From contig NZ_JARLTC010000028.1 of NCBI RefSeq assembly GCF_029382225.1, positions 1-64,000 on the forward strand: a DNA stretch of 64,000 bases, written 5' to 3'. Shown here piece by piece: positions 12,147 to 55,807 of this stretch; the stretch's first letter is position 1, and each line of letters starts with the position of its first letter. Source of the stretch: Spongiactinospora sp. TRM90649 (GTDB taxonomy: Bacteria > Actinomycetota > Actinomycetes > Streptosporangiales > Streptosporangiaceae). Position numbers and translations under genes: made by a program. The notes beneath the pieces were generated by a model. It did no database searches, was not told the origin of the DNA, and saw only the letters and a program-made list of their open reading frames with translations.

Positions 12147-12279
12147 CGCCCGACCTCCCGTGTCCCACCCGGACCGACCTTAGCCCCGGGTCAGGTCAGG
12201 AGCCAGCCACCGCCCGCGGCGAGGCCGACGCCGTTGCCGGCGGGCCTTTCGGGCGGCCTGTGTTGTCCGGGCGTCCTGC

Positions 12280-12292
12280 TTTAATGCGGGGC
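12280..12292 (+). promoter_or_regulatory. Minus-10 element of a probably leaderless host gene
   Basis: TTTAAT (12280-12285) stands 7 bases before ATG 12293 with no ribosome site in between, the spacing of a leaderless transcript. No good -35 is visible. In the integrated state this promoter would read through the host gene fragment into the integrase gene. Confidence 0.4.
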
Positions 12293-12373
12293 ATGGCAGA
12301 GCAGGCCCCCCAGGGCGCGCCGGAACACCCGCCCGGCACCACCATCTCGGGTGTTCTGGAGCGGATCCCCTGA
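12293..12373 (+). pseudogene. 5' fragment of a host gene, probably a RecD2-type helicase, interrupted by the element
   Basis: ATG 12293 opens 26 codons ending in ISGVLERIP and a TGA. Actinobacterial RecD2-like helicases begin with a short variable tail followed by GVLERIT-like sequence and continue for about 700 residues. Here the match stops after seven or eight residues and the integrase starts 20 bases after the stop. The simplest reading is that the element inserted in the first codons of this gene, and the rest lies beyond the unseen right end. The identification rests on a very short match. Confidence 0.45.
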
Positions 12374-12393: not shown

Positions 12394-14286
12394 ATGCAGC
12401 CAGCGGCTCATTTTCCTGTCCTCCCCGGCGGCCTGAAGCCCGCCATCGGGTACGTCCGCGTCTCGATGATGCTGGGCGAGAAGATCTCTCCAGAAGTCCA
12501 GATGGACTCCATCTCGGCCTGTGCCGCGCGTAAGGGGTTCTACGTTCCCGAGGGACTGTGGCCGCACGGCGGATGGATCGTCGAGCTGGACGTGTCGGGA
12601 CGCGACTTCAAGCGCGACATTCAGATCGCGGTGCAGGCCGTCGAGCAGCGCGTCGTGCGCGCGATCATCGTGTGGGAGTTCAGCCGGTTCGGCCGTGACC
12701 GGGAGGGCAATCCGACGCACCTGGGACGCATCGAGCGGGCGGGCGGGGAACTGGTGTCCGCGACCGAGGACGTGGACGCGCGCACCCCTGCCGGGCGCCT
12801 GGCTCGCGGGATTCACTTCGAGTTCGCCGCCTACTATTCGGACCTGGTGGGGCAACGCTGGTCGGAGGCGTTCCAGAACCGGCTCAAGCGCGGCCTGCCG
12901 CCACTGGGCGGTGACTACTTCGGCTACGTGCGCCGGGGCCGACAGCCTCATCCGCTGTTCCACGATCGGACCCTGCTCAATCCGGCGGACGGGCCTGAGC
13001 GCTATGAGCCCGACGTCGAGGGCGGCACGGGCGGCGCCTTGGCCGACATGTATGCGATATGGCTTACTGAACGTAACTTCTACGGTCTCGCGAAGAGTCT
13101 GAACATGCAGGGGATCCGGAAGACGACCGGCCGCGAATGGCACGCAGACGAAGTGGCCGAGGTGCTCGACCATGGATTCGGGGCGGGAAAGATCAGCGTG
13201 CACGACCCGGATTGCGAGTGCGGGCGACCGTCGCGGTGCGGGCACAGGGTGCTGTTCCCCGGCACCCAAAGGCCGGTGATCGGCATGGCGACGTGGGAGG
13301 CGTACGTCGACGCCCGGCAGGAAATGCAGCGGCTCCCACGCAAATCGCGCACATCCCGGCATTCGCTGTCCGGCCTGATCGTGCACGGACCGTGCGGGGG
13401 CGTCATGCACGTCTCCCGGCCCGCTGGGGACTTACAGGGATTCAAATGCGGCTGGCGGCAACGGCAGGGCGCTCGGACGGCGGGGGCGGAGGGTGTGGTG
13501 GTGTGCCAGGACACGTTCGTGCAGCGGTCATTGGTGATCCGGGCCCTGCTTGACGTGCTGGCCGAGTGGGTGCCGATGATCGAAGAGGCCGCACGGGCGA
13601 CGAGGCCAGAGCCGGGGACGAGCGACTCGAAGCAGCAGGCGATGCGACGGCTGCAACGGGAGCTGAGGCGTCTGGACGCTGAGCTGGACGAACAGACCAT
13701 GCTCCTGGCCCGCAAGGTCATCCCGGAAGACGCCTACGTCCGGGTCCGCGACAAGTGCCTCGCCGACCGGGCGGCGAAGCAGGCGGCGCTGGACACCCTA
13801 GAAGGACGTGCGAAGCCAGGCAGGGATGCCTTAGCGGCCGTTCCGGTGATCGAGGGCTTGGTGGCGGAGTGGGACAGTCTCGCCGTGACGGATCGGCGTC
13901 GGCTGCTGATGGAAGTGATCGAACGGGTAGAGGTGTGGCGCGACCGGCTGGACATCGCGCGAATCGTGGTGGTGCCGCGTTGGGAAGGCGGTCAGCCGGT
14001 CACGCGCGAGCTTCCGGGACGGCGGCGGATGGAGGCCGTGCGACGGGCGATCCCGGTTGTTCTGGCCGAGCGGTTCGGTGGGGCGGCTCGCTACGAGCGG
14101 CTGCGCGAGGTGGTGGCCGAGGCGGTGCCGGCCAGCAAGAAGGTGTTCAACGCGGCGATTCTGGGTCTGGCCGCCGAGGGGGCTCTGGTGCGCGAGCCAC
14201 TCAAAGATAAGCAGGGCACGGTGTATCGGCTGCCCGATGCGGTAGCGGAAGCACCCGCAGCATCGGGCAGCGAAACGAGGCGCTGA
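12394..14286 (+). CDS. int: Large serine integrase
   Basis: 630 residues; phiC31-type integrases are about 600. Catalytic domain at residues 16-165: the nucleophile is Ser24 in GYVRVSMM, with the arginine-rich EFSRFGRDREG near 105. Recombinase domain follows at about 190-290. A zinc-ribbon region lies around 330-380, with Cys residues in GPCGGVMH and FKCGW. A coiled coil lies at about 412-450 (the synapsis-control arm), and an unusual ~100-residue C-terminal extension is present. GAGGG precedes ATG 12394. Two TTA leucine codons (13432, 13831) are in frame, rare in such GC-rich genomes. It catalyses attP x attB integration, and with an RDF, excision. Confidence 0.95.
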   Translation: MQPAAHFPVLPGGLKPAIGYVRVSMMLGEKISPEVQMDSISACAARKGFYVPEGLWPHGGWIVELDVSGRDFKRDIQIAVQAVEQRVVRAIIVWEFSRFGRDREGNPTHLGRIERAGGELVSATEDVDARTPAGRLARGIHFEFAAYYSDLVGQRWSEAFQNRLKRGLPPLGGDYFGYVRRGRQPHPLFHDRTLLNPADGPERYEPDVEGGTGGALADMYAIWLTERNFYGLAKSLNMQGIRKTTGREWHADEVAEVLDHGFGAGKISVHDPDCECGRPSRCGHRVLFPGTQRPVIGMATWEAYVDARQEMQRLPRKSRTSRHSLSGLIVHGPCGGVMHVSRPAGDLQGFKCGWRQRQGARTAGAEGVVVCQDTFVQRSLVIRALLDVLAEWVPMIEEAARATRPEPGTSDSKQQAMRRLQRELRRLDAELDEQTMLLARKVIPEDAYVRVRDKCLADRAAKQAALDTLEGRAKPGRDALAAVPVIEGLVAEWDSLAVTDRRRLLMEVIERVEVWRDRLDIARIVVVPRWEGGQPVTRELPGRRRMEAVRRAIPVVLAERFGGAARYERLREVVAEAVPASKKVFNAAILGLAAEGALVREPLKDKQGTVYRLPDAVAEAPAASGSETRR

Positions 14287-14434: not shown

Positions 14435-14500
14435 TGAACGACATGTTCGTTCAATTCATGTCTTTTCGTTGACTTGCGCGCAAATCGCGTTAGTCTGATA
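14435..14500 (+). promoter_or_regulatory. Left-block promoter with TTGCGCGCAA operator and an upstream palindrome
   Basis: TTGACT (14469-14474), a 16-base spacer and TAGTCT (14491-14496) form the promoter. The perfect palindrome TTGCGCGCAA (14474-14483) lies directly behind the -35. A second palindrome, TGAACGA-N5-TCGTTCA (14435-14453), lies 15 bases upstream. The promoter closely resembles that at 42,215. The remaining gap 14,287-14,600 holds this region, the hairpin, one GTAAGC site and one CCCACCC motif; no gene is seen. A ~100-base leader precedes the first gene. Confidence 0.65.
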
Positions 14501-15323: not shown

Positions 15324-16760
15324 ATGCCCTCTCCCACCGTGGAACAGACCCGCATCATGGAGGACTTCGTCGCCGGTAAGGCACTTCGCGTCCAGGCCGG
15401 AGCCGGGGCCGGGAAGACGACCACGCTCAAGATGGCCGCTGCGGCCACTCCCCGCCGCAAAGGCCTGTACGTGGCGTTCAACAAGGTGATCGCCACCGAA
15501 GCCGCCGCCTCCTTCCCCGAGAGCGTGAGCTGCCGCACGGGCCACTCACTCGCCTACGCGGCCGTGGGACGCACGTACGCGCGCCGCCTCAAGGCTCCGC
15601 GCATGTCCTCGCACCTGGTCGCCTGCAAGATGGGCATCAACGAGCCGGTACGGCTGGACGAGGGACGCGTGCTCGCCCCGGCACAGGTCGCGCGGGTCGT
15701 CATGGCGACGGTCGCCAACTTCACCCACTCCGACCGCCGCGACATCGCCCATCAGCCCGTCGCCCGGCTGCGCGGCTGGGAGGACGACGACGCGATGGAG
15801 GCGCTCGAACAGGTGGTTCCGCCGCTGGCGCTCAGGGCGTGGGCCGACCTGACGAACCCGCGCGGCGGCCTGCCGTTCAGCCACGACACCTACTTCAAGA
15901 TCTGGTCCCTGGCCGACCCCCAGCTTGCCGCCGACTTCGTGATGGTGGACGAATTCCAGGACACCAACCCGGCGCTGCTGTCGGTCATCCGCGCGCAGCG
16001 CTCGGCACAGATCGTGGCTGTGGGGGACTCCGCGCAGGCGATCTACGAGTGGCGGGGAGCGATCGACGCGATGAACGCGATCGACGGCGTGGAGCGCACC
16101 CTGTCGCAGAGTTTCCGGTTCGGCGAGGCCGTCGCCGAGGAGGCGAACAAGTGGCTGGAGATCCTTGACGCGCCGCTTCGTCTGCGCGGTTTCGAGGCGA
16201 TCAATTCGCGGGTCGCCGAACTGGAGGAGCCGGACGCGATTCTCTGCCGCACGAACGCCGAGGCCATGGCGCAGGCCATGGCGGGTCTCGACAAGGGCAA
16301 GCGCGTGGCACTCGTGGGTGGGGGAAGGCAGATCCGCGCCATGGCCGAAGCCGCTCTCCAGCTCCAGGAAGGGCGAGGGTGCGACCACCCCGAACTGTGC
16401 GCCTTCCAGAACTGGGGCCAAGTACAGCAGTACGCGTTCGTCGAGGAGGACGGCCAGGACCTCCAGGCCATGGTGAAGCTGATCGACGGCCACGGGGCCG
16501 AAAAGATCATCGACGTGGCGGACGCCCTCGACCGCGAGGAAGCCGCTGACCTGATCATCTCGACCGCGCATCGCTCCAAGGGGCGCGAGTGGCACCGCGT
16601 GCGGGTCGCCGGAGACTTCTCCGAGCCCAAGCCGACCGACGACGGGCGGCCCGGCAAGGTCACCCCTGCCGACGCGCGTCTGGCCTACGTCACTGTGACC
16701 CGCGCCCAGCATGTGCTCGACACCGGCGGCCTGAGCTGGGTGGACAAATATCTCGCCTGA
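15324..16760 (+). CDS. UvrD/Rep-like superfamily 1 helicase
   Basis: 478 residues, shorter than host UvrD (~700). Walker A GAGAGKTT at 26-33, Walker B VDEFQD at 208-213, motif III-type GDSAQAIYEWRGA near 233, QSFRF near 256, AHRSKGREW near 414 and motif VI AYVTVTRA near 455. All helicase motifs are present, while the 1B/2B insertions are small, as in phage and plasmid members. AGGAGG sits 6 bases before ATG 15324. It probably unwinds or remodels DNA during replication or recombination of the element. Cytoplasmic. Confidence 0.92.
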   Translation: MPSPTVEQTRIMEDFVAGKALRVQAGAGAGKTTTLKMAAAATPRRKGLYVAFNKVIATEAAASFPESVSCRTGHSLAYAAVGRTYARRLKAPRMSSHLVACKMGINEPVRLDEGRVLAPAQVARVVMATVANFTHSDRRDIAHQPVARLRGWEDDDAMEALEQVVPPLALRAWADLTNPRGGLPFSHDTYFKIWSLADPQLAADFVMVDEFQDTNPALLSVIRAQRSAQIVAVGDSAQAIYEWRGAIDAMNAIDGVERTLSQSFRFGEAVAEEANKWLEILDAPLRLRGFEAINSRVAELEEPDAILCRTNAEAMAQAMAGLDKGKRVALVGGGRQIRAMAEAALQLQEGRGCDHPELCAFQNWGQVQQYAFVEEDGQDLQAMVKLIDGHGAEKIIDVADALDREEAADLIISTAHRSKGREWHRVRVAGDFSEPKPTDDGRPGKVTPADARLAYVTVTRAQHVLDTGGLSWVDKYLA

Positions 16761-33264: not shown

Positions 33265-34068
33265 CTACCCCTCAGTCCACGAAATGGTTCCGACGCCTCC
33301 GAGGAAGAACCCTTCGTGTGGAAGGTGCTCGTACCTGGGCAGGCCGAGATCGGGCCGCCACTCAGCGACATCCACCAGGCCCGGGGGATGGAGTTCTGGC
33401 ACGTGCGGGGCGAGCAGAGCGGTCACCTGCTCACGTGTGCGTGGGAAGATCGGTGTCGGCGATGCTTCGTAGATCTTGCGCGCCGCCTTCGATGCCTCCG
33501 GCGACATGTCCTCGTCGCACGCGTGCGTGAGCACCACGACACTTCCTTTCCCCAGGCGCTCGGCGAACCGGCCGAGGACCCCAACCAGCAGGTCGTCCTG
33601 CTCCACGAAGTGGGCGACAGCGACAGCGATAAGCCCAGTCGGTCGATCAGGGCGCAGAAGTTCGCGTGCATCAGCGCTGTCCAGGATCGCGTCAGGCTTT
33701 CGCAGATCCCCCTCCACCATGGCGACACCGGGGCCCGCCAGCAGGGCACGGCCATGCGTGAGCACCACCGGATCGTTGTCCACATACACCACGCGCGCGG
33801 CTGGGTTCACCCTGCGGGCGACCTCGTGCACGTTGTCCTGGGTGGGCAGGCCGGAGCCGATGTCGAGGAACTGCTCGACGCCGGCCTCGGCAAGGGTGCG
33901 CACGGCACGGCCAAGGAAGTCCCGGTTCTGCCGCACGGCTCGCCGGACATTGGGGCTCGCCTTCTCCAGCTCCGCGGCGGCCACGCGATCGACGGCGTAG
34001 TTGTCCTTACCGCCGAGCAGGAAGTCGTAGACCCGAGCCGCATTCGGGTGGGACACATCGATCATCAT
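33265..34068 (-). CDS. SAM-dependent methyltransferase, DUF574 type
   Basis: 267 residues. The opening HPNAARVYDFLLGGKDNYAV and the AdoMet motif FLDIGSGLPTQDNVHEVA at about 73-90 are diagnostic of this actinobacteria-specific family; VVYVDNDPVVL follows. The methyl acceptor is unknown for the family. ATG 34068 has no clear ribosome site, so a short or absent leader is likely. Divergent from the XRE regulator across a 212-base region with an operator-like repeat. A second member is at 37,585. Confidence 0.88.
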   Translation of the reverse strand: MMIDVSHPNAARVYDFLLGGKDNYAVDRVAAAELEKASPNVRRAVRQNRDFLGRAVRTLAEAGVEQFLDIGSGLPTQDNVHEVARRVNPAARVVYVDNDPVVLTHGRALLAGPGVAMVEGDLRKPDAILDSADARELLRPDRPTGLIAVAVAHFVEQDDLLVGVLGRFAERLGKGSVVVLTHACDEDMSPEASKAARKIYEASPTPIFPRTREQVTALLAPHVPELHPPGLVDVAEWRPDLGLPRYEHLPHEGFFLGGVGTISWTEG

Positions 34069-37584: not shown

Positions 37585-38391
37585 ATGAATCCGGAATCCG
37601 GTCAGCGTGAAATGGCTCCGCCCGGCGTGGACCCCACTGTGCCGAGCGTGGCGAGAATGTACGACTATGGACTCGGCGGCACCACTAACTACAGGATCGA
37701 CCGCGAGATCTCCGACAAGCTCTGGGCGGCGGCACCAGACCTGCCCGCGCTGACTCACGACGGACGCCGCTTCCTGGAGCGGGTCGTGCGCTTCATGGTC
37801 GAGGCCGGAGTCGACCAGATCATCGACATCGGGTCCGGCCTGCCCACCGCGAACAACGTCCACCAGGTCGCGCAGGCGATCAACCCGGCTGTACGCGTCG
37901 TATACGTGGACAACGACCCTACGGTCCACATTCACGCGCAGGCCCTGCTGTCCGGCGACGAGCGCACGCGCTACGTCGATTCCGACGCGCGCACTCCGGC
38001 CCAGATCATCAACCACCCCCACACCCAGCGGCTGATCGACTTCACCCGGCCGGTCGGGCTGATGTACCTGTATCTGCTGCACTACATCGCGGATGCCGAT
38101 GATCCGTACGGGTCCGTCCGGCGCGTCCTGGACGAGCTGGCAAGCGGCAGCTACCTCGTCATTTCCCACGTGACCCAGGAGGGAACCGACCCGCACCTAC
38201 ACGCCACCTTCCAGAAGGTGTTCTCAGGGGTCATCTTCCGGACCAAGGCCGAAATCCTGCGCTTCTTCGACGGCTGGGACATCATCACACCTCCGGGCAT
38301 GGTCAACGTCTCCGAGTGGAGCGCCACCGGGGACGCGCCGGGGGAGCCACGAGCACTACGGGCGTGGACGGCGGTGGCGATCAAGCCGTGA
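37585..38391 (+). CDS. SAM-dependent methyltransferase, DUF574 type, second copy
   Basis: 268 residues. VPSVARMYDYGLGGTTNYRI and IIDIGSGLPTANNVHQVAQA are the family marks, with VVYVDNDPTVH, as in the 33,265 gene; the two are clearly divergent, so not a recent duplication. AAAGGA precedes the ATG. Its last codons overlap the last codons of the SARP gene on the opposite strand by 11 bases. Confidence 0.88.
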   Translation: MNPESGQREMAPPGVDPTVPSVARMYDYGLGGTTNYRIDREISDKLWAAAPDLPALTHDGRRFLERVVRFMVEAGVDQIIDIGSGLPTANNVHQVAQAINPAVRVVYVDNDPTVHIHAQALLSGDERTRYVDSDARTPAQIINHPHTQRLIDFTRPVGLMYLYLLHYIADADDPYGSVRRVLDELASGSYLVISHVTQEGTDPHLHATFQKVFSGVIFRTKAEILRFFDGWDIITPPGMVNVSEWSATGDAPGEPRALRAWTAVAIKP

Positions 38392-40939
38392 TGACGCTCA
38401 GTGCCGATGCGGCGAACTGCTCGTAGGTGCGATCTCCTCGCCTGGTGCTGATCTCCCGCCCCGTCTCAACGGCGGTCTGACAGGTTGTCGCGGCCTCGTC
38501 CGTCCGCCCCAGGGCATGCTCGATCAAGACCAGTGTGCGAAGAGAGGCGACCTCGGCGTAGTCGTCCCCGGCGGTCTGGGCCAGCGTCAGCGCCATGCGA
38601 GCGTCCTGCTCCGCCTGAGCCAGCAGGCCCGGATCGTTCTCACCGGCTGTCTGGGCCATCTCGTGGCGGCAGTGGGCGCGCAATGCCAGCGCACGCGCCC
38701 ACGACCGTCGGTCGACCAGTCGTTGCAGTACCTCGGCACAGTCGTTCAACATGGGCACGGCTCGCAGCGGTCCGCCTTCGGTGGCGGCGACCAGTGCGGC
38801 GGCTCGCAGCCGGGCTTGGGCCCCCAGGCGGTCGTCGCCGGTCTCCACGGCGATACGCGTGATCACACGCCACATGTCCTCGGCGTCGCGAGACCGGCCG
38901 CTGCGGTTCAGATGAGCGGAGATCCGCAGAGCGATCCCGAAGGCCAGGCGGAACCGGCGCTCGGCCAGTTCCATCCGGATCACGCCGAAAATCTGCGTGG
39001 CCTCGGCGGTGAGCCAGCCCTCGGGATCGGAGGCGACCAGTTCCCAGGCCACCTCGGGGATGAGGTCGATCGAGGTGTCCATCGTGGACGGCGGGGCGAA
39101 CCACGGCTCGCCCGGCGTGGCCGCCGCCGCCCGGTCGGCGAGCAACAGCCATCCGGTCAGCAGCCGATGTGTGGCCACGTCGCGCTCGTCCGGCCGGTCG
39201 GCGAGCCGCCGCTCGGCGTACTCACGGACCAGGTCGTGCATGCGGTAACGCGGATGGCCGTGGGCGTCGGCGCCGGCGGGCAGCACCAGATTGTGCGCAT
39301 TGAGGGCGGCCAGCGCGTCTTCGCCGTCCCCCTTACCGATCAGCATGTCCGCCAGCCACATGGGCCAAGAACCGGATCCGGCCAGGGACAGCACGCGCAG
39401 CGCGTGCCGGACTTGTTCCGATAGGGCGTCATAGCTGTCGGCAATGCTGGCTGAAACGGCCACATCCCCATCGGTCAGGCCCGCCAGCCGATCGTGCAAC
39501 CGGGTGGCCAGCAGCCCGATCGGCCAGTGTGGATGCGCCGTCAGCCTGCCTGCGGCGATGCGCAGCGCGAGTGGCAGGTCGGCGCAGGCGTCCAGGATCG
39601 CGTCGGCCGCGCTCGGCTCGGCGTCGATGCGGTCGGCTCCAATGAGCTCCGCCAGCAGGTGGCGGGCCTCGTCGCGGCGCAGCGGGTCAAGCGTCATCGA
39701 GCGGATACCGGGGCCGCTCAGCCGGGGGCGGCTGGTGATGAGAACGGCGCAGCCCGGTGTGCCGGGAACGAACAACCCGCCCTGGGCGGCGCTCGCCACA
39801 TCGTCGATGACCAGCAGGACCTTGCGGTCGGCCAGGACCGATCGGAGAAGGGCCGAGCGTCCGGCGGTGGACGCGGGGATGTCGGCGGCCGGCACACCGA
39901 GCAGGACGAGTTGCTCGGCGAGCGCTTCTCCGACCGCGACCGGCCGTCCCGACATCGCTCCCAAGTGCACGAAGATCTGGCCGTCCGGGAACCGCCGCCG
40001 CACCCGGTGACCGAGGTGAACGGCGAGAGCGGTCTTGCCGACGCCGGGCATGCCGGTGATGTTGATCACTGGTACGGCCGCGCCGGACGCGGGAACGTGG
40101 GTGAGGATGGCGGTGATCTCCGCCAGGCGGCCGACGAAGTCGGGCAGGTCGGCCGGGAGTTGGGCGGGGATCACTCGCCGCGTCGCGATGACGTCGGGTG
40201 TAGCGGCCGGGCGTGGCTCGTGCAGCACGTCGGCCGCGATGTCGTCATGCAGCCGACGCAGCCGCCCGCCCGGATCACTTCCCGTTTCCCGGCGTAAGAG
40301 AACGGCGAAGGCGTCATAGTGCCGAAGGGCATCAACCCGATCTCCCGCCCGATACAGGGAGTCCATCAGAGCCGCATGCAGGGCCTCCGATAGCGGATCG
40401 TCCTGGAGCGCACGTCGCACCGCGGTGAGAGCATCGCGATGCCGACCCAGCGATGTCAGCGTCTGGACCAGTTCCAGACGGGCGTCGCGATGCTGGCGCA
40501 AGAGTTCGTCCCGCACTCCGCGAAGCAGTGACGAGTCATCCGGCATGTCCGGCACCGGGGGATCACCGAGCAATTCCACCGCCCGGCCGAGAAGATGTGC
40601 CCTGACCACGGCCTCGGATGCGCCCTCGGCGGCCGTGACAAGGCGGCGAAACTCGGTCAGATCAAGCGCGTCGTCATCGCCCAACACGATCCGGTATCCA
40701 GCCGATCCGCCGGGCGGTATGCGGCCAGGCAGCAGACGGCGCAGTTCGGAGACGACCGTCTTCACGGCGCCGTCGCGACCGTGATCATCTCCCCATACGC
40801 CTTCGGCCAGTTCGGCGCCGGACAGTCCGCGATCGTGCAGAGCCAGCAGGGCGCACAGCACGCGGCGCTGAAGGGGGGACAAGGTGACCGGACCTGCGTG
40901 GTCGATGACGCCGACCTGCCCGAGAATGTGGAACTGCAT
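38381..40939 (-). CDS. Large SARP-type regulator (OmpR-like wHTH, BTAD, NB-ARC, TPR)
   Basis: 852 residues. Winged helix at ~1-85 (LSPLQRRVLCALLALHDRGL), bacterial transcriptional activation domain at ~95-240, an NB-ARC ATPase with Walker A GMPGVGKTALA near 295 and VLLVIDDV near 370, then helical TPR-like repeats to the end. This is the AfsR layout; AfsR-like proteins activate secondary metabolism or developmental genes. Finding one within an integrated element suggests it drives cargo or host genes. Possible targets in the window: the divergent 41,056 gene or the kinase/radical SAM run. Confidence 0.88.
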   Translation of the reverse strand: MQFHILGQVGVIDHAGPVTLSPLQRRVLCALLALHDRGLSGAELAEGVWGDDHGRDGAVKTVVSELRRLLPGRIPPGGSAGYRIVLGDDDALDLTEFRRLVTAAEGASEAVVRAHLLGRAVELLGDPPVPDMPDDSSLLRGVRDELLRQHRDARLELVQTLTSLGRHRDALTAVRRALQDDPLSEALHAALMDSLYRAGDRVDALRHYDAFAVLLRRETGSDPGGRLRRLHDDIAADVLHEPRPAATPDVIATRRVIPAQLPADLPDFVGRLAEITAILTHVPASGAAVPVINITGMPGVGKTALAVHLGHRVRRRFPDGQIFVHLGAMSGRPVAVGEALAEQLVLLGVPAADIPASTAGRSALLRSVLADRKVLLVIDDVASAAQGGLFVPGTPGCAVLITSRPRLSGPGIRSMTLDPLRRDEARHLLAELIGADRIDAEPSAADAILDACADLPLALRIAAGRLTAHPHWPIGLLATRLHDRLAGLTDGDVAVSASIADSYDALSEQVRHALRVLSLAGSGSWPMWLADMLIGKGDGEDALAALNAHNLVLPAGADAHGHPRYRMHDLVREYAERRLADRPDERDVATHRLLTGWLLLADRAAAATPGEPWFAPPSTMDTSIDLIPEVAWELVASDPEGWLTAEATQIFGVIRMELAERRFRLAFGIALRISAHLNRSGRSRDAEDMWRVITRIAVETGDDRLGAQARLRAAALVAATEGGPLRAVPMLNDCAEVLQRLVDRRSWARALALRAHCRHEMAQTAGENDPGLLAQAEQDARMALTLAQTAGDDYAEVASLRTLVLIEHALGRTDEAATTCQTAVETGREISTRRGDRTYEQFAASALSVITA

Positions 40940-41055: not shown

Positions 41056-41559
41056 GTGATCAAGGTGCACGACGGCATCAGCATGCACAGCGTCGTGGGC
41101 GTCTTCCAGGAGTTGGCCGACGCCGGGCGCCGCCCGGCCGGTGAAGGACTGGAGCTGCTCGGAGAGCTTGCCCGCCAGCGAGACGAGCTTGCGGCCCGCG
41201 CGCGGGCACAGCAGTTGGCGATCGAACTGCTGATGGGCCATGTGATCGTGGCCTTGCGTGGGCAGTGCCCGGCCGTGCTCGGGTCGGTGATCGCGCAGGC
41301 GATCGGCCGCGACGGCTCGACGGTCTCGCGCCTGGCCCACAGATCCGGCGGGCCAAGCCTGCGGGCGGGGACCGGTCGGCGAGGCGGGGCGGCCGGGAGT
41401 GGCGACAGGGCATTGCTCCGTAAGGCGATCGAGGCCGAGCGCGCGACGTTGCTGGCGACGGCCGGCGCTGGGGCTGAACGTGCTGCGGTCGTCGCTGCCG
41501 AGATGGACGCCTTCTGCATGAACTATCTGCCGCGCCGACGTGTCAGTTCTTGCGCATGA
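41056..41559 (+). CDS. Hypothetical protein
   Basis: About 167 residues from GTG 41056, behind GGGACGAG. An HTH-like segment lies at ~72-97 (AVLGSVIAQAIGRDGSTVSR) with an Arg/Gly-rich loop after it, so it may bind DNA. Divergent from the SARP gene across 116 bases, and overlaps the 3' end of the repressor-like gene by 17 bases. Not recognised. Confidence 0.6.
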   Translation: MIKVHDGISMHSVVGVFQELADAGRRPAGEGLELLGELARQRDELAARARAQQLAIELLMGHVIVALRGQCPAVLGSVIAQAIGRDGSTVSRLAHRSGGPSLRAGTGRRGGAAGSGDRALLRKAIEAERATLLATAGAGAERAAVVAAEMDAFCMNYLPRRRVSSCA

Positions 41560-42049
41560 TCCGGACCTGTGTGGCGTGCATCTCGTACATGGCAACGGCT
41601 TGGGCGGTCAGCGCGGCGGCCATCGCTTCATGCTCCCGCTGTGTCACCGGAAGGGCGCGGATCTCCTCGATGGCCGCCTCAAGCCAGGTGCGCAGCCCGG
41701 CTGGCAGATTCTCCATCTCTGGAGCGGCGGCTTCGTGGCCCGATGTGAGGCGCGCACGGAACAGTGCGGCGGCCTCGTGCGCTCCGGCCGCGTCCAGATG
41801 GTCAGGGGTGATGTTGTCCAGGGCGCCCTCATCCGACAACACCAGGGCCATCGTCGCGACGCGCGGTGGTTTGCTGAGCACCACCTGGTCGCCCTTCTCA
41901 GCCGCGTCCCACGTATTGCGGGAGAACCGGCCGCCGGAGATCCTTGCCGCCCGCCGTGCCGCCTCGTTCACCGACAGGGCGTCCAGCCTGGCCTCCCGTG
42001 CGCGCACCAATAGCCTGGCCAGAGCGGCCACTGGAATGTCGTCGGCCAT
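41543..42049 (-). CDS. Repressor-like protein with XRE-type helix-turn-helix (candidate immunity repressor)
   Basis: 168 residues from ATG 42049 behind GGGAG. Residues ~20-70 read as an XRE-like fold: ALSVNEAARRAARISGGRFS, RNTWDAAEKGDQ, then PPRVATMALVLSDEGAL, the pattern seen in small actinophage repressors. The C-terminal half is helical (TWLEAAIEEIRALPVT). It is divergent from an excisionase-like gene across a 200-base region with three TTGCGCGC sites, the classic repressor/early-gene arrangement. Confidence 0.6.
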   Translation of the reverse strand: MADDIPVAALARLLVRAREARLDALSVNEAARRAARISGGRFSRNTWDAAEKGDQVVLSKPPRVATMALVLSDEGALDNITPDHLDAAGAHEAAALFRARLTSGHEAAAPEMENLPAGLRTWLEAAIEEIRALPVTQREHEAMAAALTAQAVAMYEMHATQVRIMRKN

Positions 42050-42094: not shown

Positions 42095-42108
42095 CTGTTT
42101 TTGCGCGC
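42095..42108 (-). promoter_or_regulatory. 12-mer GCGCAAAAACAG with an overlapping TTGCGCGC half-operator
   Basis: On the minus strand this follows TTGAAC (42115-42120), a possible -35 for the repressor-like gene. TTGCGCGC at 42101-42108 matches 8 of 10 bases of the palindrome. It could be the autoregulatory operator, while the 12-mer is shared with the region before the 36,099 gene. Confidence 0.5.
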
Positions 42109-42200
42109 TCTAGTGTTCAAACGGTAGCAGGCAGTCCCCCTCCTGTCAGGATGAGTTGCCCTTCCATGGACTTTCGCTCACTTCATTGAACTGAAATGAC

Positions 42201-42242
42201 TTGCGCGCAAAGTGTTGATTTGCGCGCAAATTCGATTAAACT
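42201..42242 (+). promoter_or_regulatory. Twin TTGCGCGCAA operators on a leaderless promoter
   Basis: Perfect palindromes at 42201-42210 and 42220-42229 (19 bases apart). The second lies directly behind TTGATT (-35, 42215-42220), with TAAACT (-10, 42237-42242) after a 16-base spacer. The expected transcript starts at or one base before GTG 42250, so the first gene is leaderless. Binding at either site would cover the promoter. Confidence 0.7.
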
Positions 42243-42249
42243 GATCTCT

Positions 42250-42687
42250 GTGACACCACTTGCGACCGACGAAGATCATCATGCGGATGATCTTGATTTA
42301 CACGACCTCATCAGCGTGAGCGCATTCGCCGCGATGCTCGGAGTCAGTGCCACCGTGGCACGCAACGTCGTTCGCGAGGGCGGTGTCGCCCATTTCAAGA
42401 TCGCGAAGAAGTCCGTGCGCATCCCCCGCGCGGAGGCGCAGCGCTACTGCGCCACTCCTCAGGGGCGTCTGCACCGCGAGGCCGCCGAGCGTGCCGAGTC
42501 GCCGCCGCAGGGGTGGCTCACGGTGGCTCAGGCGGCGAAGGTGATGACCGTCTCGGAGCGAACAGTGATCGCCCTCCTCGCCGATGGCGCACTGGAGGCC
42601 GAGGTGATCGACGGCGGCCGGTACGTCGGCCACCAGGAGATCCAGGAGTACCTCGCCGCCGTGTTCGTGCCCGCAAGGGCCGCCTGA
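42250..42687 (+). CDS. Tandem winged-helix protein, excisionase/MerR-like (first gene of the right block)
   Basis: 145 residues with two helix-turn-helix units of the excisionase type: LISVSAFAAMLGVSATVARN at ~16-36 with FKIAKKSVRIPRAEAQRY, and WLTVAQAAKVMTVSERTVIA at ~80-100 with GGRYVGHQEIQEYL. Double-unit proteins of this kind can bind DNA as monomers. Faces the repressor-like gene, so it could act as the anti-repressor or early regulator rather than as a true excisionase, since a gp3-like RDF is also present. Confidence 0.75.
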   Translation: MTPLATDEDHHADDLDLHDLISVSAFAAMLGVSATVARNVVREGGVAHFKIAKKSVRIPRAEAQRYCATPQGRLHREAAERAESPPQGWLTVAQAAKVMTVSERTVIALLADGALEAEVIDGGRYVGHQEIQEYLAAVFVPARAA

Positions 42688-42741: not shown

Positions 42742-42900
42742 ATGCACATGATCAGTTACGCGCAGGCGTGGCGCATCTACGGTGCGCGCACGCCGCACCG
42801 GCTCGCCTGCGCCGGGACCATCCCGCAGTGGCGGCGCGGCCGGTGCTTCTACCACGCCGACATGCTCGCCGAGGCGGCTCACAGGGGAGGTGTCAAGTGA
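42742..42900 (+). CDS. Small wHTH (AlpA/Xis-like) protein, 52 residues
   Basis: ATG 42742 behind GAGGGGG. ISYAQAWRIYGARTPHRLAC and TIPQWRRGRCFYHADMLAEA read as a minimal winged helix of the excisionase type, with the wing carrying the WRRGR basic residues. Its TGA overlaps the GTG of the next, similar protein. Probably a DNA-architectural or regulatory factor. Confidence 0.65.
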   Translation: MHMISYAQAWRIYGARTPHRLACAGTIPQWRRGRCFYHADMLAEAAHRGGVK

Positions 42901-43127
42901 GGCTGCTGCCCAGGGCGTCCTCGGTGGACCCGGAAAAGGTGTACTTCCGGCAGGAGGTCGCCGAGATGTTCGGCGTCGATAGGGCGACGGTCGCCGAATG
43001 GAGCCAGAAGGGGTATCTGAACGAGTCCACCACGCCCGGCGGTCTGCCGCGCGTCCAGGGCAGTTCCATCATCGCCCTGGTCCGCCGGTGCACGGGACAG
43101 GCCGACGTGCCAGGAGTGGCCAAGTGA
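42897..43127 (+). CDS. MerR/AlpA-like small DNA-binding protein
   Basis: 76 residues from GTG 42897 (overlaps preceding TGA). VYFRQEVAEMFGVDRATVAE then WSQKGYLNESTTPGGLPRV is a typical excisionase winged helix. Third DNA-binding protein in a row after the operator region. Coupled to the next gene by a GTGA overlap. Confidence 0.7.
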   Translation: MRLLPRASSVDPEKVYFRQEVAEMFGVDRATVAEWSQKGYLNESTTPGGLPRVQGSSIIALVRRCTGQADVPGVAK

Positions 43128-44295: not shown

Positions 44296-45233
44296 TGACC
44301 GCCCCCCGGTACGCGGTCGATACGCCGAATGGCCGGTACTACCGCGACCCGAAGGACGGCCTCGACGGACCGCCCCGCTACGTCTCGGTCACCAACGTCA
44401 TCAACCAATGGGACAAGGACGCCCTCGCGCCCGGCGCGGCCAAGGCGACCGTCGCCCACATGATGGAGCACCTCCCGGCCGCGGTGCGGGCCTCGCGCCA
44501 CCCCGAGACGCGCGAGGCGTTCGCCAAGGAGGCACGGGGCGCGTTCCGCAAGATCTGGGACAAGGCCGCCGACTTCGGCACGCTGGTTCACAAGCTCGCC
44601 GATGCCCACCTCACCGGACGCCATCTCACCTGGTTCTCTCCCGAGGAGCAGGAGGAACTGGCCGAGGCCCGTGAGTTCCTGGACACCTACCTGGAGTGGA
44701 TGGGCGACTTCGGCGTGGACGCCGAGGGCGACGTTCACTCCAGTGAGATCACCGTCTACAACCGGACCTATGGCTATGCGGGCACCGCGGACCTCTGGGT
44801 CGATCTGACCTTTCCGCAACCGCAGTCGCCACAGCATCCGCGCTACCGGTCGCGCACCTACCCGCAGATGACCATCACCACGCCGTCCGGGCTGTGGCTC
44901 GTGGACGGCAAGACCAGCCGCAACCCCAACAAGCAGCCCTCCGAGGTCTACCGCGACCACCTCGCCCAGCTTGCCGCGCTGCGGTTCGCCGAGACCGCGC
45001 TGCTGCCGGACGGCACTGAGATTCCCGTGCCGCAGTTCGTCGGCACGGCGATTCTCAACCTCCGCCCTGACGGCAAGTACGCGTTCGTTCCCATGCACGC
45101 GGGCCCGCAGGAGTTCGAGGTGTTCCTGCACCTCAAGGAGATCGCCGGATACGTGCACGACCAGCTCGACATGCGCCGCTACCGGCCGATCGTCCCCCCT
45201 GCCCGCACCACCACCAGGAAGGGTGCCGCCTGA
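44295..45233 (+). CDS. PD-(D/E)XK nuclease (RecB/Cas4-like phage exonuclease family)
   Basis: 312 residues. GTLVHKLADAHLTGRHLTWF near 97-116 supplies the His of Cas4/RecB-like nucleases, Asp166 is in GYAGTADLWVDL, and the DxK motif is Asp204-Gly-Lys206 in WLVDGKTS. The segment SEVYRDHLAQLAALRFAE gives the conserved QxxxY-like helix region. ATG 44295 overlaps the preceding TGA. Probably resects DNA ends for recombination, acting with the RDF/recombination genes that follow. Confidence 0.8.
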   Translation: MTAPRYAVDTPNGRYYRDPKDGLDGPPRYVSVTNVINQWDKDALAPGAAKATVAHMMEHLPAAVRASRHPETREAFAKEARGAFRKIWDKAADFGTLVHKLADAHLTGRHLTWFSPEEQEELAEAREFLDTYLEWMGDFGVDAEGDVHSSEITVYNRTYGYAGTADLWVDLTFPQPQSPQHPRYRSRTYPQMTITTPSGLWLVDGKTSRNPNKQPSEVYRDHLAQLAALRFAETALLPDGTEIPVPQFVGTAILNLRPDGKYAFVPMHAGPQEFEVFLHLKEIAGYVHDQLDMRRYRPIVPPARTTTRKGAA

Positions 45234-46378
45234 TGCCCATCCGCCCGTCCATGATCCAGCGCCGCCTCGCCGAAGCGGGGCGGATCCGGCTCGGACACCG
45301 GGTGCCCACCAAGAACAACAAGCTCCGGCCGGAGAAACTGGCGACCTTCCGCTTCACCTCTCCCGACCAGCGGCGTATCGAGGAGATCGCCGCGCTGTAC
45401 GGCGGCACCGCGCAGCCGTGGGAGGAGAAGAAGCAGTGGCAGGTCATCACCGAGACCGACCGCATCCCCATCACGGTCCCGCCCAACGCCTCCAGCGAGT
45501 GGATGGAGCTGTGGTCGGGCGGGGGCGCGGTGCGCCGCTGCGATGGCGAGACCGAGATCAAGTCCAGCAAGCCGTGCCTGTGCAGGGCGTCCAGGCAGAT
45601 GGCGTGCAAGCCGCACACCCGCGTCAGCCTTCTCCTGCGCGAGGTGACCGGCATGGGCACGTGGCGAATCGAGCCCAAGTCGTGGGACGCCGCCGCTGAG
45701 CTGCCCGACCTGGTGGAGTTCCTCGCCAGTGTCGGCCGGTACATCGACGCCGACCTGGTGCTCGACCCACGAACGAAGGTCAAGGACGGCAAGACCTTCG
45801 AGTGGTGGGTGCCCATGCTGGACCAGAGCCAGTACACCTTCGGACAGCTCACCGAAGCCGCCCGCACTGGGACGCTGACCGCAGGTCCCGCTGTCGCGAC
45901 TGCCGCCCTCGCCGGCACGGCCCGAGCGGCCATCCAGGCTCTCGGTGCGGCATTGGCGGCCGAGGACCTGATGATGGCCGCGCGCCTTGCTGAGACCACG
46001 GCCGAGTTGCGTGCCATCTGGGAGCGCAGCAAGACCGAAGGGGTCCGGTTCAACCAGGAGCAGCGCGCCGAGTTCGACCGGCTCGTCATCGCCGCGAAGC
46101 AGCACACGGCGCAGTCCAGCTCGCCGCAGGGCGCCGTGCCTGCTCAGCAGGAGCCCCCCGAGGCCGAGATCGTGGACGCCGAGCCGGTGGACGAGAACGA
46201 CGCCGACCTGCTGTGGATGCAGATCGTCTCCGCCTGGCCGGGCACCACGAGTGAGCTGGAGGTGGCGTTCGAGGGAGCGATGGGCGCACTGCCGGGTGAC
46301 GCCGGTACTGACGAGTACAAGAGCTTCCTCACAGCGCTCAGGTCGGGTCGGATCAAGCCGCTGAAGGGAGTGGCGTGA
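45233..46378 (+). CDS. phiC31 gp3-like recombination directionality factor family protein
   Basis: 381 residues; phiC31 gp3 is 244. The N-terminal ~200 residues follow the gp3 family pattern: RRLAEAGRIRLGHRVPTKNN, PEKLATFRFTSPDQRRIEEI, AALYGGTAQPWEEKKQWQVI, WMELWSGGGAVRRCDG and the Cys-containing KPCLC...CKPH. An extra ~180-residue Ala/Glu-rich C-terminus is present. In phiC31 gp3 binds the serine integrase and turns it from integration to excision; by analogy it would control excision of this element. The match is from memory, not alignment. Confidence 0.75.
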   Translation: MPIRPSMIQRRLAEAGRIRLGHRVPTKNNKLRPEKLATFRFTSPDQRRIEEIAALYGGTAQPWEEKKQWQVITETDRIPITVPPNASSEWMELWSGGGAVRRCDGETEIKSSKPCLCRASRQMACKPHTRVSLLLREVTGMGTWRIEPKSWDAAAELPDLVEFLASVGRYIDADLVLDPRTKVKDGKTFEWWVPMLDQSQYTFGQLTEAARTGTLTAGPAVATAALAGTARAAIQALGAALAAEDLMMAARLAETTAELRAIWERSKTEGVRFNQEQRAEFDRLVIAAKQHTAQSSSPQGAVPAQQEPPEAEIVDAEPVDENDADLLWMQIVSAWPGTTSELEVAFEGAMGALPGDAGTDEYKSFLTALRSGRIKPLKGVA

Positions 46379-54195: not shown

Positions 54196-54641
54196 ACGCC
54201 ACCGTCAGCGCGATGGCCGACTGGATCCGCCCCTGGTACCCATCCGGGCCCATCGGTCATCTCCATCCCGACTGTGCGCACTTGCTCGGTGCCGAAGCCG
54301 AGCCAGCCCAGGGGGCGGGCTGGCTAGACCCCCGGCGAGGGCTCGTATGCCGCCCCTGCCTTGAACGGTACGACGCCGCGCTGTACCGCACCGTCTTCTC
54401 CCCGCCCTCCTGGGACGCCGTCTGCGAGAACTGCGGCGAATCCATGAACGGCGAGCAGGAGGACGAGCCACACGCCGAGGAGCCACAGCACTGGTTCGCC
54501 GAGGCCCCACGGCCCCGCACCGAGGCGGACGCCGTGGACTGGGCCGCCGACCACCGGTGCGTGCCCATCGTGGAGATCGTCCCGCCCGGCCTGCGGGCCA
54601 GGCCCGTGCACACCATCCACCCGATCGGAGATCTGCTGTGA
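54192..54641 (+). CDS. Hypothetical protein with cysteine pairs
   Basis: 149 residues from GTG 54192. GHLHPDCAHLL, LVCRPCLERYDAALYR and AVCENCGESMNG give potential zinc ligands. The acidic centre (EQEDEPHAEEPQ) separates them from the C-terminus. GTGA overlap with the sliding-clamp gene. Family not recognised. Confidence 0.68.
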   Translation: MNATVSAMADWIRPWYPSGPIGHLHPDCAHLLGAEAEPAQGAGWLDPRRGLVCRPCLERYDAALYRTVFSPPSWDAVCENCGESMNGEQEDEPHAEEPQHWFAEAPRPRTEADAVDWAADHRCVPIVEIVPPGLRARPVHTIHPIGDLL

Positions 54642-55807
54642 AACTGACCGTTCCCACGAAGGGCCTGGCCGATGGCATCGCCTTCGCCGCCCGCGCCATC
54701 CCCAAGCGCTCGCCGGTGCCCGTGTTGTCCGGCATCGCCTTGCGCGCCACCGGTGGCCGGCTCGCCGCCGAGGCGTACGACTACGAGATCTCGATGCGCT
54801 GCGAAGTGCAGGCCCATGTGGCCGACGAAGGCTCGGTGCTGGTGCCCGGCCGGGTGCTGGCCGAGATCTGCGCCAAACTGCCCGGCGACGAAGTGGTGAT
54901 CAGTACCGACGCGACGATGGCGGAGCTGACCTGTGGCCGGGTCGCCGTCCGGCTGCCGCTGATGCCGCTGGAGGACTTCCCCGACCTTCCTGAGACGCCA
55001 CCCCTGCTCGGCACCATCGAGAGCGAGGCCTTCACACAGGCCCTCGCCCAGATAGCCCCGGCGACGTCCAAGGACGACGCGCTGCCGATGCTCACCGGCA
55101 TGCTCATCGACCTGGAGAAGGACCGGATGACGTTGGCGGCGACCGACCGCTACCGGCTCGCCCGGCGTGAGATCACCCGCCCGGTCTGGACGCCCGCCTG
55201 CGACGCGACGGGGGCACTGCTCGTCCCGGCCCGGCGGCTGCGCGAGGAGGTCAAGCGCATGCCGTCCGGTGTGCTGGAAATCGGTCACGACCCAGCGGCG
55301 GCCGGGCTGGTGTCGGTGAGCGTGGAGGCGCCCATCGGGCAGCGCATACTGACTTCGCGCCTGATGGAGGAGCAGTTCATCGACTACAAGGCTCACTTCG
55401 AGAAGTTCGGCGCCACCGCGACCAGGTGGGCCGCCTTCGAGGTCAGGCCGGTGATCGACGCCGTCAGGCGGGTCGGCCTGGTGGCGGGGGAGAAGTCACC
55501 GGTCCGCCTGTCGTTCACCGAGGAGACGGTGATGGTCAGCGCGGGCCACCACAGCGAGGGGGCCGCCGACGAACTGGTGGACGCCCAACTGGAGGGCGAG
55601 CCGATCACCGTCACCTACCAGCCGGACCACCTGCTGGTGGCGCTCCAGGCCGCCGCCGCCGAGAAGTACCGCCCCGGATCGGCTCGCGTGCGGCTCGGCA
55701 TGGCGGCGCCCGCCAAGCCGACTCTGCTGCTCGGCGACGTGCGCACGCAGGAAGACGAGCCCGCCTACCGATGCATCGTCATGCCGCTCAGGATGGGCGA
55801 CGAATGA
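54638..55807 (+). CDS. dnaN: DNA polymerase III beta-subunit-like sliding clamp
   Basis: 389 residues from GTG 54638, close to chromosomal DnaN length. Three clamp domains are recognisable: domain 1 GIAFAARAIPKRSPVPVLSG, domain 2 LPMLTGMLIDLEKDRMTLAA with TDRYRLARREI, and a C-terminal region ending YRCIVMPLRMGD (canonical clamps end ...MPMR/L). It encircles DNA and tethers polymerase. An element-encoded clamp suggests independent replication, perhaps with host polymerase. Starts in a GTGA overlap. Confidence 0.9.
   Translation: MKLTVPTKGLADGIAFAARAIPKRSPVPVLSGIALRATGGRLAAEAYDYEISMRCEVQAHVADEGSVLVPGRVLAEICAKLPGDEVVISTDATMAELTCGRVAVRLPLMPLEDFPDLPETPPLLGTIESEAFTQALAQIAPATSKDDALPMLTGMLIDLEKDRMTLAATDRYRLARREITRPVWTPACDATGALLVPARRLREEVKRMPSGVLEIGHDPAAAGLVSVSVEAPIGQRILTSRLMEEQFIDYKAHFEKFGATATRWAAFEVRPVIDAVRRVGLVAGEKSPVRLSFTEETVMVSAGHHSEGAADELVDAQLEGEPITVTYQPDHLLVALQAAAAEKYRPGSARVRLGMAAPAKPTLLLGDVRTQEDEPAYRCIVMPLRMGDE

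Follow-up and report, generated by a model that had tools for sequence, protein, structure and literature searches.

Putative immunity repressor and operators at two early promoters of a Spongiactinospora prophage, and a family of related switches with co-varying operators

Divergent genes, operators and the early promoter PR

The DNA that we analysed, referred to here as the window, is the first 64 kb (64,000 nucleotides) of C38, a 180-kb contig in a 9.13-Mb Spongiactinospora genome; positions outside the window are given as positions of C38. Two divergent genes are at the center of this report. The leftward gene (41543 to 42049, minus strand), which most likely starts with the ATG at 42049, encodes a putative repressor of 168 amino acids with a predicted N-terminal domain (residues 2-89) and C-terminal helices. 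The rightward gene (42250 to 42687, plus strand), which is the first early gene and is probably leaderless, starts with GTG and encodes 145 amino acids with two HTH_17 (excisionase/MerR-like) stretches (Pfam HTH_17, E 2.1e-12; phrog_66, excisionase and transcriptional regulator, E 5.2e-12). When read from the GTG, the N-terminus of this product is similar to that in a related locus, L010, and begins like that in another, L017.

The original prediction for this DNA placed two perfect palindromes and one partial site between the 2 genes, with an operator overlapping the promoter spacer, and both statements agree with what we observed. The palindrome TTGCGCGCAA is present at 42201-42210 and again, 19 bp further downstream, at 42220-42229, and the partial site TTGCGCGCTC, which matches TTGCGCGCAA at 8 of 10 positions, is located at 42101-42110; L010 has a similar partial site at -114. 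The 42220-42229 copy lies within the -35/-10 spacer of a putative early promoter, designated PR (42215 to 42242, plus strand), which consists of TTGATT (42215-42220), a 16-bp spacer and TAAACT (42237-42242). The -10 hexamers described in this report are weak, as are the promoters when judged by consensus, and PR, with 8 of 12 matches against a cut-off of 9, was not listed by a strict sigma-70 scan. Since the -10 sequence of PR is only 7 nt from the GTG at 42250, a leaderless start of this transcript is plausible.

On the opposite strand, the repressor gene appears to have its own promoter, with the extended -10 sequence TGCTACCGT at 42121 to 42129 (minus strand); the sequence TGNTACNGT occurs once each in 18 of 21 homologous loci. 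The partial site at 42101 probably lies a short distance downstream of the point at which transcription of the repressor gene starts, and 41543 probably represses its own gene through this site near the extended -10, i.e., by negative autoregulation.

Just inside the early transcript, at 42272-42294, there is an inverted repeat, AAGATCATC-N5-GATGATCTT, and GATC-containing stems similar to it were noted by eye in L017, L025 and L029. Predicted RNA folding of the 42249-42330 segment was not notable (z of -0.81, and -1.27 for a shorter stretch), and no Rfam match was found in the window or in L006, a stretch of C38 that is discussed below.

The prophage

We made gene calls on C38 1-124000 and followed these with family scans (Pfam, PHROGs). 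The locus lies in a prophage of roughly 105 kb, which spans ~12.3-117.1 kb of C38 and is recognized as such because it has a serine integrase, a recombination-directionality-factor (RDF)-like protein, terminase, portal, coat and tape measure proteins and att-like repeats, and because the corresponding site is empty in a sister genome. Tail proteins and a DUF3987 protein are also encoded. The left att-like repeat (12263 to 12311) is located in the 5' end of a host gene and has its partner at C38 117086-117133 (49 bp, 86% identical); the host gene is uninterrupted in genome G002, and genome G001 has an element at the same place. Next to this repeat is the gene for the large serine integrase (12394 to 14286, plus strand; Pfam Resolvase, E 3.8e-15; phrog_95 integrase, E 1.7e-53). 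The gene for the RDF-like (Gp3-like) protein (45233 to 46378, plus strand; PF18897, E 8.9e-38) belongs to a tightly packed run of genes that begins at PR, and another gene of the early operon (42897 to 43127, plus strand) encodes a small HTH_17-like protein (Pfam HTH_17, E 1.2e-4, below the gathering score). The proposal that this region has the layout of a lysogeny switch in a phage-like element is thus upheld by the prophage genes and att-like repeats, and also by the divergent layout, which recurs in the relatives described below.

The 41543 protein

No family in Pfam, PHROG or NCBIfam matches the window repressor, and no convincing match was obtained when solved structures were searched with its sequence. 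Its AlphaFold2 model has a mean pLDDT of 84, with values mostly of 85-95 over residues 11-100. Alignment of the repressor with VIA yielded HipB (Z 7.8), C.AhdI (7.7), BldD (6.2), the 434 repressor (6.1) and, in a range that extended down to 5.3, Cro; all of these Z values are under the tool's caution level of 8, and we consider them moderate evidence for a fold. Plain Foldseek searches with the model gave no match with E < 0.001 in PDB or BFVD, so that the HTH matches come only from VIA. The Pfam family HTH_31 matches 13 of 21 members of the repressor family at E values up to 0.1 (the best being 1e-5) and does not match the window protein. These observations are consistent, with moderate confidence, with the prediction that the N-terminal fold is lambda-repressor-like (XRE), i.e., a five-helix domain with an HTH.

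Induction of prophages classically occurs by RecA-stimulated self-cleavage of an S24-type repressor. We found no S24 peptidase domain in the 41543 protein by Pfam, and its C-terminus is predicted to be helical. Lack of this domain argues that induction is not by the classical self-cleavage; possibly, it occurs through an antirepressor or lowered synthesis of the repressor. No homologs were detected among 50,697 phage records when three family members were used as queries, nor were relatives detected in viral contigs by short peptide patterns, or in plasmids with one clade B member (see below) as query.

A second early promoter, P2, and other sites in the prophage

The original prediction was right with regard to the sites at PR, but it overlooked a third perfect operator and a second putatively regulated promoter. 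The third copy of TTGCGCGCAA (14474 to 14483) is 27.7 kb from PR, embedded in the sequence TTGACTTGCGCGCAAATCGCGTTAGTCT, with the serine integrase gene to one side of it and a helicase operon to the other. It occupies the same register as in PR within a predicted early promoter, P2 (14469 to 14496, plus strand), which consists of TTGACT, a 16-bp spacer and TAGTCT. Downstream of P2 is a gene for a UvrD-type DNA helicase (15339 to 16760, plus strand; Pfam UvrD-helicase, E 2.9e-15; phrog_1967 DNA helicase, E 5.3e-86). P2 is kept in G001 and, as TTGCGTGCAA, in genome G144. Its leaderless frame is not conserved, as the GTG in G001 is followed by AAA TAA.

In the 9.13-Mb genome there are 4 copies of the perfect 10-mer TTGCGCGCAA, the same number as for its backwards control, and 3 of the 4 are inside this prophage, where ~0.05 copies would be expected in 105 kb (hand calculation). 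Sites with one mismatch or less are not enriched in the window (4, as compared to a shuffle mean of 2.84, with 34 of 100 shuffles reaching 4), so that the signal is attributable to the perfect sites and to the promoters around them. There are nine such sites in C38 1-124000. One of these, at C38 97174-97188 (L006 13174; outside of the window), reads TTGAC TTGCGTGCAA CTGTCAC TATGTG and is upstream of a tail gene at 97266; with one mismatch to the operator and a PR-type register, it is possibly a third repressed promoter. By the right att-like repeat, a small leftward ORF is preceded by TTGCACGCAA and TTGCACGCGA (C38 117029-117058), which have a spacing of 19 bp, and a degenerate version of this pair of sites exists at the equivalent place in G001.

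Conservation of the sites and a fixed promoter template in relatives

Relatives of the repressor are encoded in 22 of 341 family genomes, including the one studied here. The family search gave 23 matches, from which we removed L034 (internal stop) and L036 (a chance match to a BTAD-type regulator), leaving the 21 loci that are counted throughout this report. The sequence TTGAYTTGCGCGCAAA is present in 3 of 345 genomes of the order, with its backwards control at zero in all genomes shown, and these 3 are exactly the genomes that encode a close repressor, i.e., the present one, G001 (63% identical) and G144 (56% over the alignment). Both PR and P2 are conserved in all 3 of these prophages, which are from Spongiactinospora and Nonomuraea. 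In G001, the single perfect site of PR is preceded at 19 bp by a degenerate one, and TTGACTTGCGCGCAAATCGCGTTACTCT is present at the junction of the integrase and helicase genes. In G144, the PR operator is TTGACTTGCGCGCAAATATGACTAGATT and a second site, TTGACTTGCGTGCAAATACAGCTAGGCT, follows a gene that by eye is tyrosine integrase-like and precedes the homologous helicase gene, from which it appears that P2 has been retained despite the different type of integrase.

Each of the 21 loci has exactly one occurrence of the template TTGNN-N10-7/8-TANNNT in the 330 bp upstream of the repressor gene. Shuffled sequence contained at least one occurrence in 0.153 of trials per locus; the loci are related to each other, and a product of chances over all 21 would overstate the case, but it is unlikely that about eight independent clades share this register by chance. 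The arrangement of a divergent repressor and early gene, with the operator inside the promoter, recurs across the relatives, and in many of them there is a second operator copy, perfect or degenerate, 19 bp upstream. A start codon is located 5-7 nt past the -10 sequence in most of the 21 loci, and in several clade B loci and L031 the frame soon ends. Leaderless translation is best supported for L009, L010, L017, L028, L030, L032, L033 and L035. Three more distant homologs from a search of the class (L054-L056), viewed apart from the 21 loci, showed no such operator.

Viral contigs yielded 17 exact matches to TTGAYTTGCGCGCAAA, mostly in low-GC sequence. A profile search found no repressor relatives in these 17 stretches, and the register was seen only in 2 of them (L079 and L085, which have identical sequence); we have therefore treated these matches as chance, rather than as further phages with the switch. 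A stricter operator pattern gave no matches in viral contigs.

Co-variation of operators with repressor clades

The operators differ by repressor clade: TTGCGCGCAA in clade A (3 loci), TGACGCGTCA-like in clade B (9 loci) and TTTCGCGAAA-like in clade C (3 loci), with L030, L031 and L033 having operators similar to those of clade C. Positions 5-7 (GCG) show little variation (19, 20 and 18 of the 21 loci, respectively), and differences between clades are in positions 1-3 and 8-10. With up to 2 mismatches allowed, mean numbers of matches to a clade's own operator were 3.0 for A, 3.56 for B and 4.33 for C, against backgrounds of 0.27, 0.25 and 0.03, the clades having been defined from the same sequences as were counted. 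The A and C operators are alike, such that clade A loci averaged 1.33 C-type matches and clade C loci averaged 2.33 A-type matches. Operator flanks correlated at r 0.61 with residues of the predicted recognition helix, and at r 0.66 with the remainder of the protein. In a partial Mantel test of flanks versus recognition helix, given the rest of the protein, r was 0.172 (P 0.006), as compared to 0.028 (P 0.39) for a control spacer. By these comparisons, the co-variation is mostly shared ancestry, and the partial effect is small.

Clade B genomes have one site each, and a two-promoter arrangement was seen only for clade A. The early gene of the nine clade B loci, for which eight ORFs were located, is of another kind; it had no Pfam match in the 2 of 9 scanned and no PHROG match in the 1 of 9 scanned. 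The component that is common to all 21 loci is the 41543-type protein.

It is conceivable, at somewhat less than even odds, that the 21 loci constitute a natural series of immunity specificities, in which one protein scaffold and one rigid promoter template are retained, together with a CGCG-like core, with replacement of the three outermost bases on either side. Recognition of these bases would depend mainly on the residues at the first two positions of the recognition helix (RN or AN with TTG, EP or EV with TGA, DR or DG with TTT). If this is true, heteroimmunity would be predictable from sequence, and the series would offer orthogonal repressor-promoter pairs for actinobacteria.

Proposed mechanism and alternatives

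The sites, their register and conservation, the co-variation and the predicted fold, all established computationally, favor the interpretation that 41543 encodes the immunity repressor of a siphovirus-type prophage, which would occlude PR and P2 by means of the TTGCGCGCAA operators (probability of about 0.85). We infer that the protein binds as a dimer to TTGCGCGCAA in the -35/-10 spacers of PR (42215) and P2 (14469), and that it would thereby block RNA polymerase; binding at PR is probably strengthened by the other operator copy, which is located 19 bp upstream. PR would direct expression of the leaderless HTH gene and the compact run of genes up to the RDF, and P2 that of the helicase operon beside the integrase. 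With repressor bound, the lytic genes and the excision factor would stay off, and upon loss of repression, DNA metabolism, excision and the lytic programme would begin. The finding is larger than the one first reported for this DNA in that it comprises a putative immunity regulon with two promoters, as well as a family of switches in which operators and repressors co-vary.

The palindromes might instead be bound by the product of 42250, acting as a Cro-like autoregulator. This protein has two HTH_17 stretches, its gene adjoins the sites, and excisionase-type proteins can act as regulators (as the phrog_66 label indicates). However, the nine clade B loci keep the operators and the register even though their first long rightward gene is of another kind, and the operator flanks vary with residues of the 41543-type protein; since the operator follows the repressor clade where the early gene differs, 41543 is the more likely reader of the sites, and we consider a role for 42250 in this capacity to be unlikely.

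Quite improbable is the possibility that TTGCGCGCAA is recognized by a nucleoid protein or regulator of the host, with the phage being wired into a host circuit. The fourth genomic copy (in L004) is indeed upstream of a conserved chromosomal gene, and a site is present there in all 3 genomes of the genus (positions 1501-1510 of L004, L011 and L014). Yet this is a single conserved locus, whereas multiple chromosomal sites would be expected of a host regulon, and the palindrome is a different one, AATTGCGCGCAATT, which is not in a promoter register and is present also in G002, a genome without a repressor homolog and without TTGAYTTGCGCGCAAA; we rejected the host-regulon reading on these grounds. 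Least probable is that the paired palindromes are an intrinsic terminator stem or another RNA structure, a reading that we rejected because, although a scan flags 42199-42231 as terminator-like (minus strand, 13 pairs), each TTGCGCGCAA site is itself a palindrome, and P2, L010, L015 and L017 keep the register with a single perfect palindrome and no long stem.

Relation to known systems

The predicted repressor-operator system resembles the CI-Cro systems of lambda, 434 and P22 in its divergent repressor gene and early operon, its palindromic operators that overlap the early promoter, its predicted lambda-repressor-like domain, and its location within a prophage that has an integrase, structural genes and att sites. 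Lambda has two repressed promoters, PL and PR, and the prophage described here would likewise have a second repressed promoter elsewhere. It differs from lambda, 434 and P22 in that no S24 self-cleavage domain (LexA/CI) was found, the 10-bp operators are in the spacer in a fixed register, the first early gene has a double HTH_17 and is probably leaderless, and the second promoter is 27.7 kb away, beside the integrase gene. The predicted fold of residues 2-89 is also like that of HTH_31/XRE-type regulators such as BldD (2ewt, 4ob4), unlike which the window protein has no Pfam HTH match at the gathering score and is encoded in a prophage.

According to two reports on Cluster A mycobacteriophages (L5, Bxb1, TipsytheTRex), the repressor and its binding motif diverge together and set heteroimmunity, and monomers of the repressor bind to asymmetric stoperators, of which there are many along the genome (PMC6550527, PMC9283540). 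The present system is similar in being from an actinobacterial temperate phage in which repressor and motif diverge together, and different in having, rather than many asymmetric sites, a few palindromic ones, with 3 perfect copies in the prophage, all in promoters.

In the literature that we searched, which included few subscription journals, we found no previous report of an immunity switch from prophages of Streptosporangiaceae; the operator string occurred in two unrelated papers and its longer form in none. The type of switch is known, and we regard the present loci as a new family within it, of which the series of co-varying operators is the interesting part. With a constant template and exchangeable operators, one can test how phage immunity specificity evolves, and such switches could also be a source of repressor-promoter pairs for antibiotic producers, a group for which genetic tools are few.

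Other genes of the prophage

Among the prophage genes is one for a DNA polymerase III beta clamp, in which all three Pfam domains are present (54638-55807). In C38 72109-75719 (L005), the family scans identified a queuine tRNA-ribosyltransferase-like gene, beside which there are genes that by eye are QueD-, QueE- and FolE-like; this arrangement would be compatible with a possible 7-deazaguanine modification of the phage DNA. GntR-like and FtsK/Tra-like genes (by eye) adjoin the right end in C38 110238-116581 (L007); by analogy, these recall an actinomycete integrative conjugative element, and there may be a second element in tandem. Mid-prophage, there are genes for a BTAD plus NB-ARC regulator (38381-40939) and an S-adenosyl methyltransferase (PF04672; 37585-38391), both from the Pfam scan, and a gene that appears by eye to encode a second methyltransferase of this type (33265-34068).
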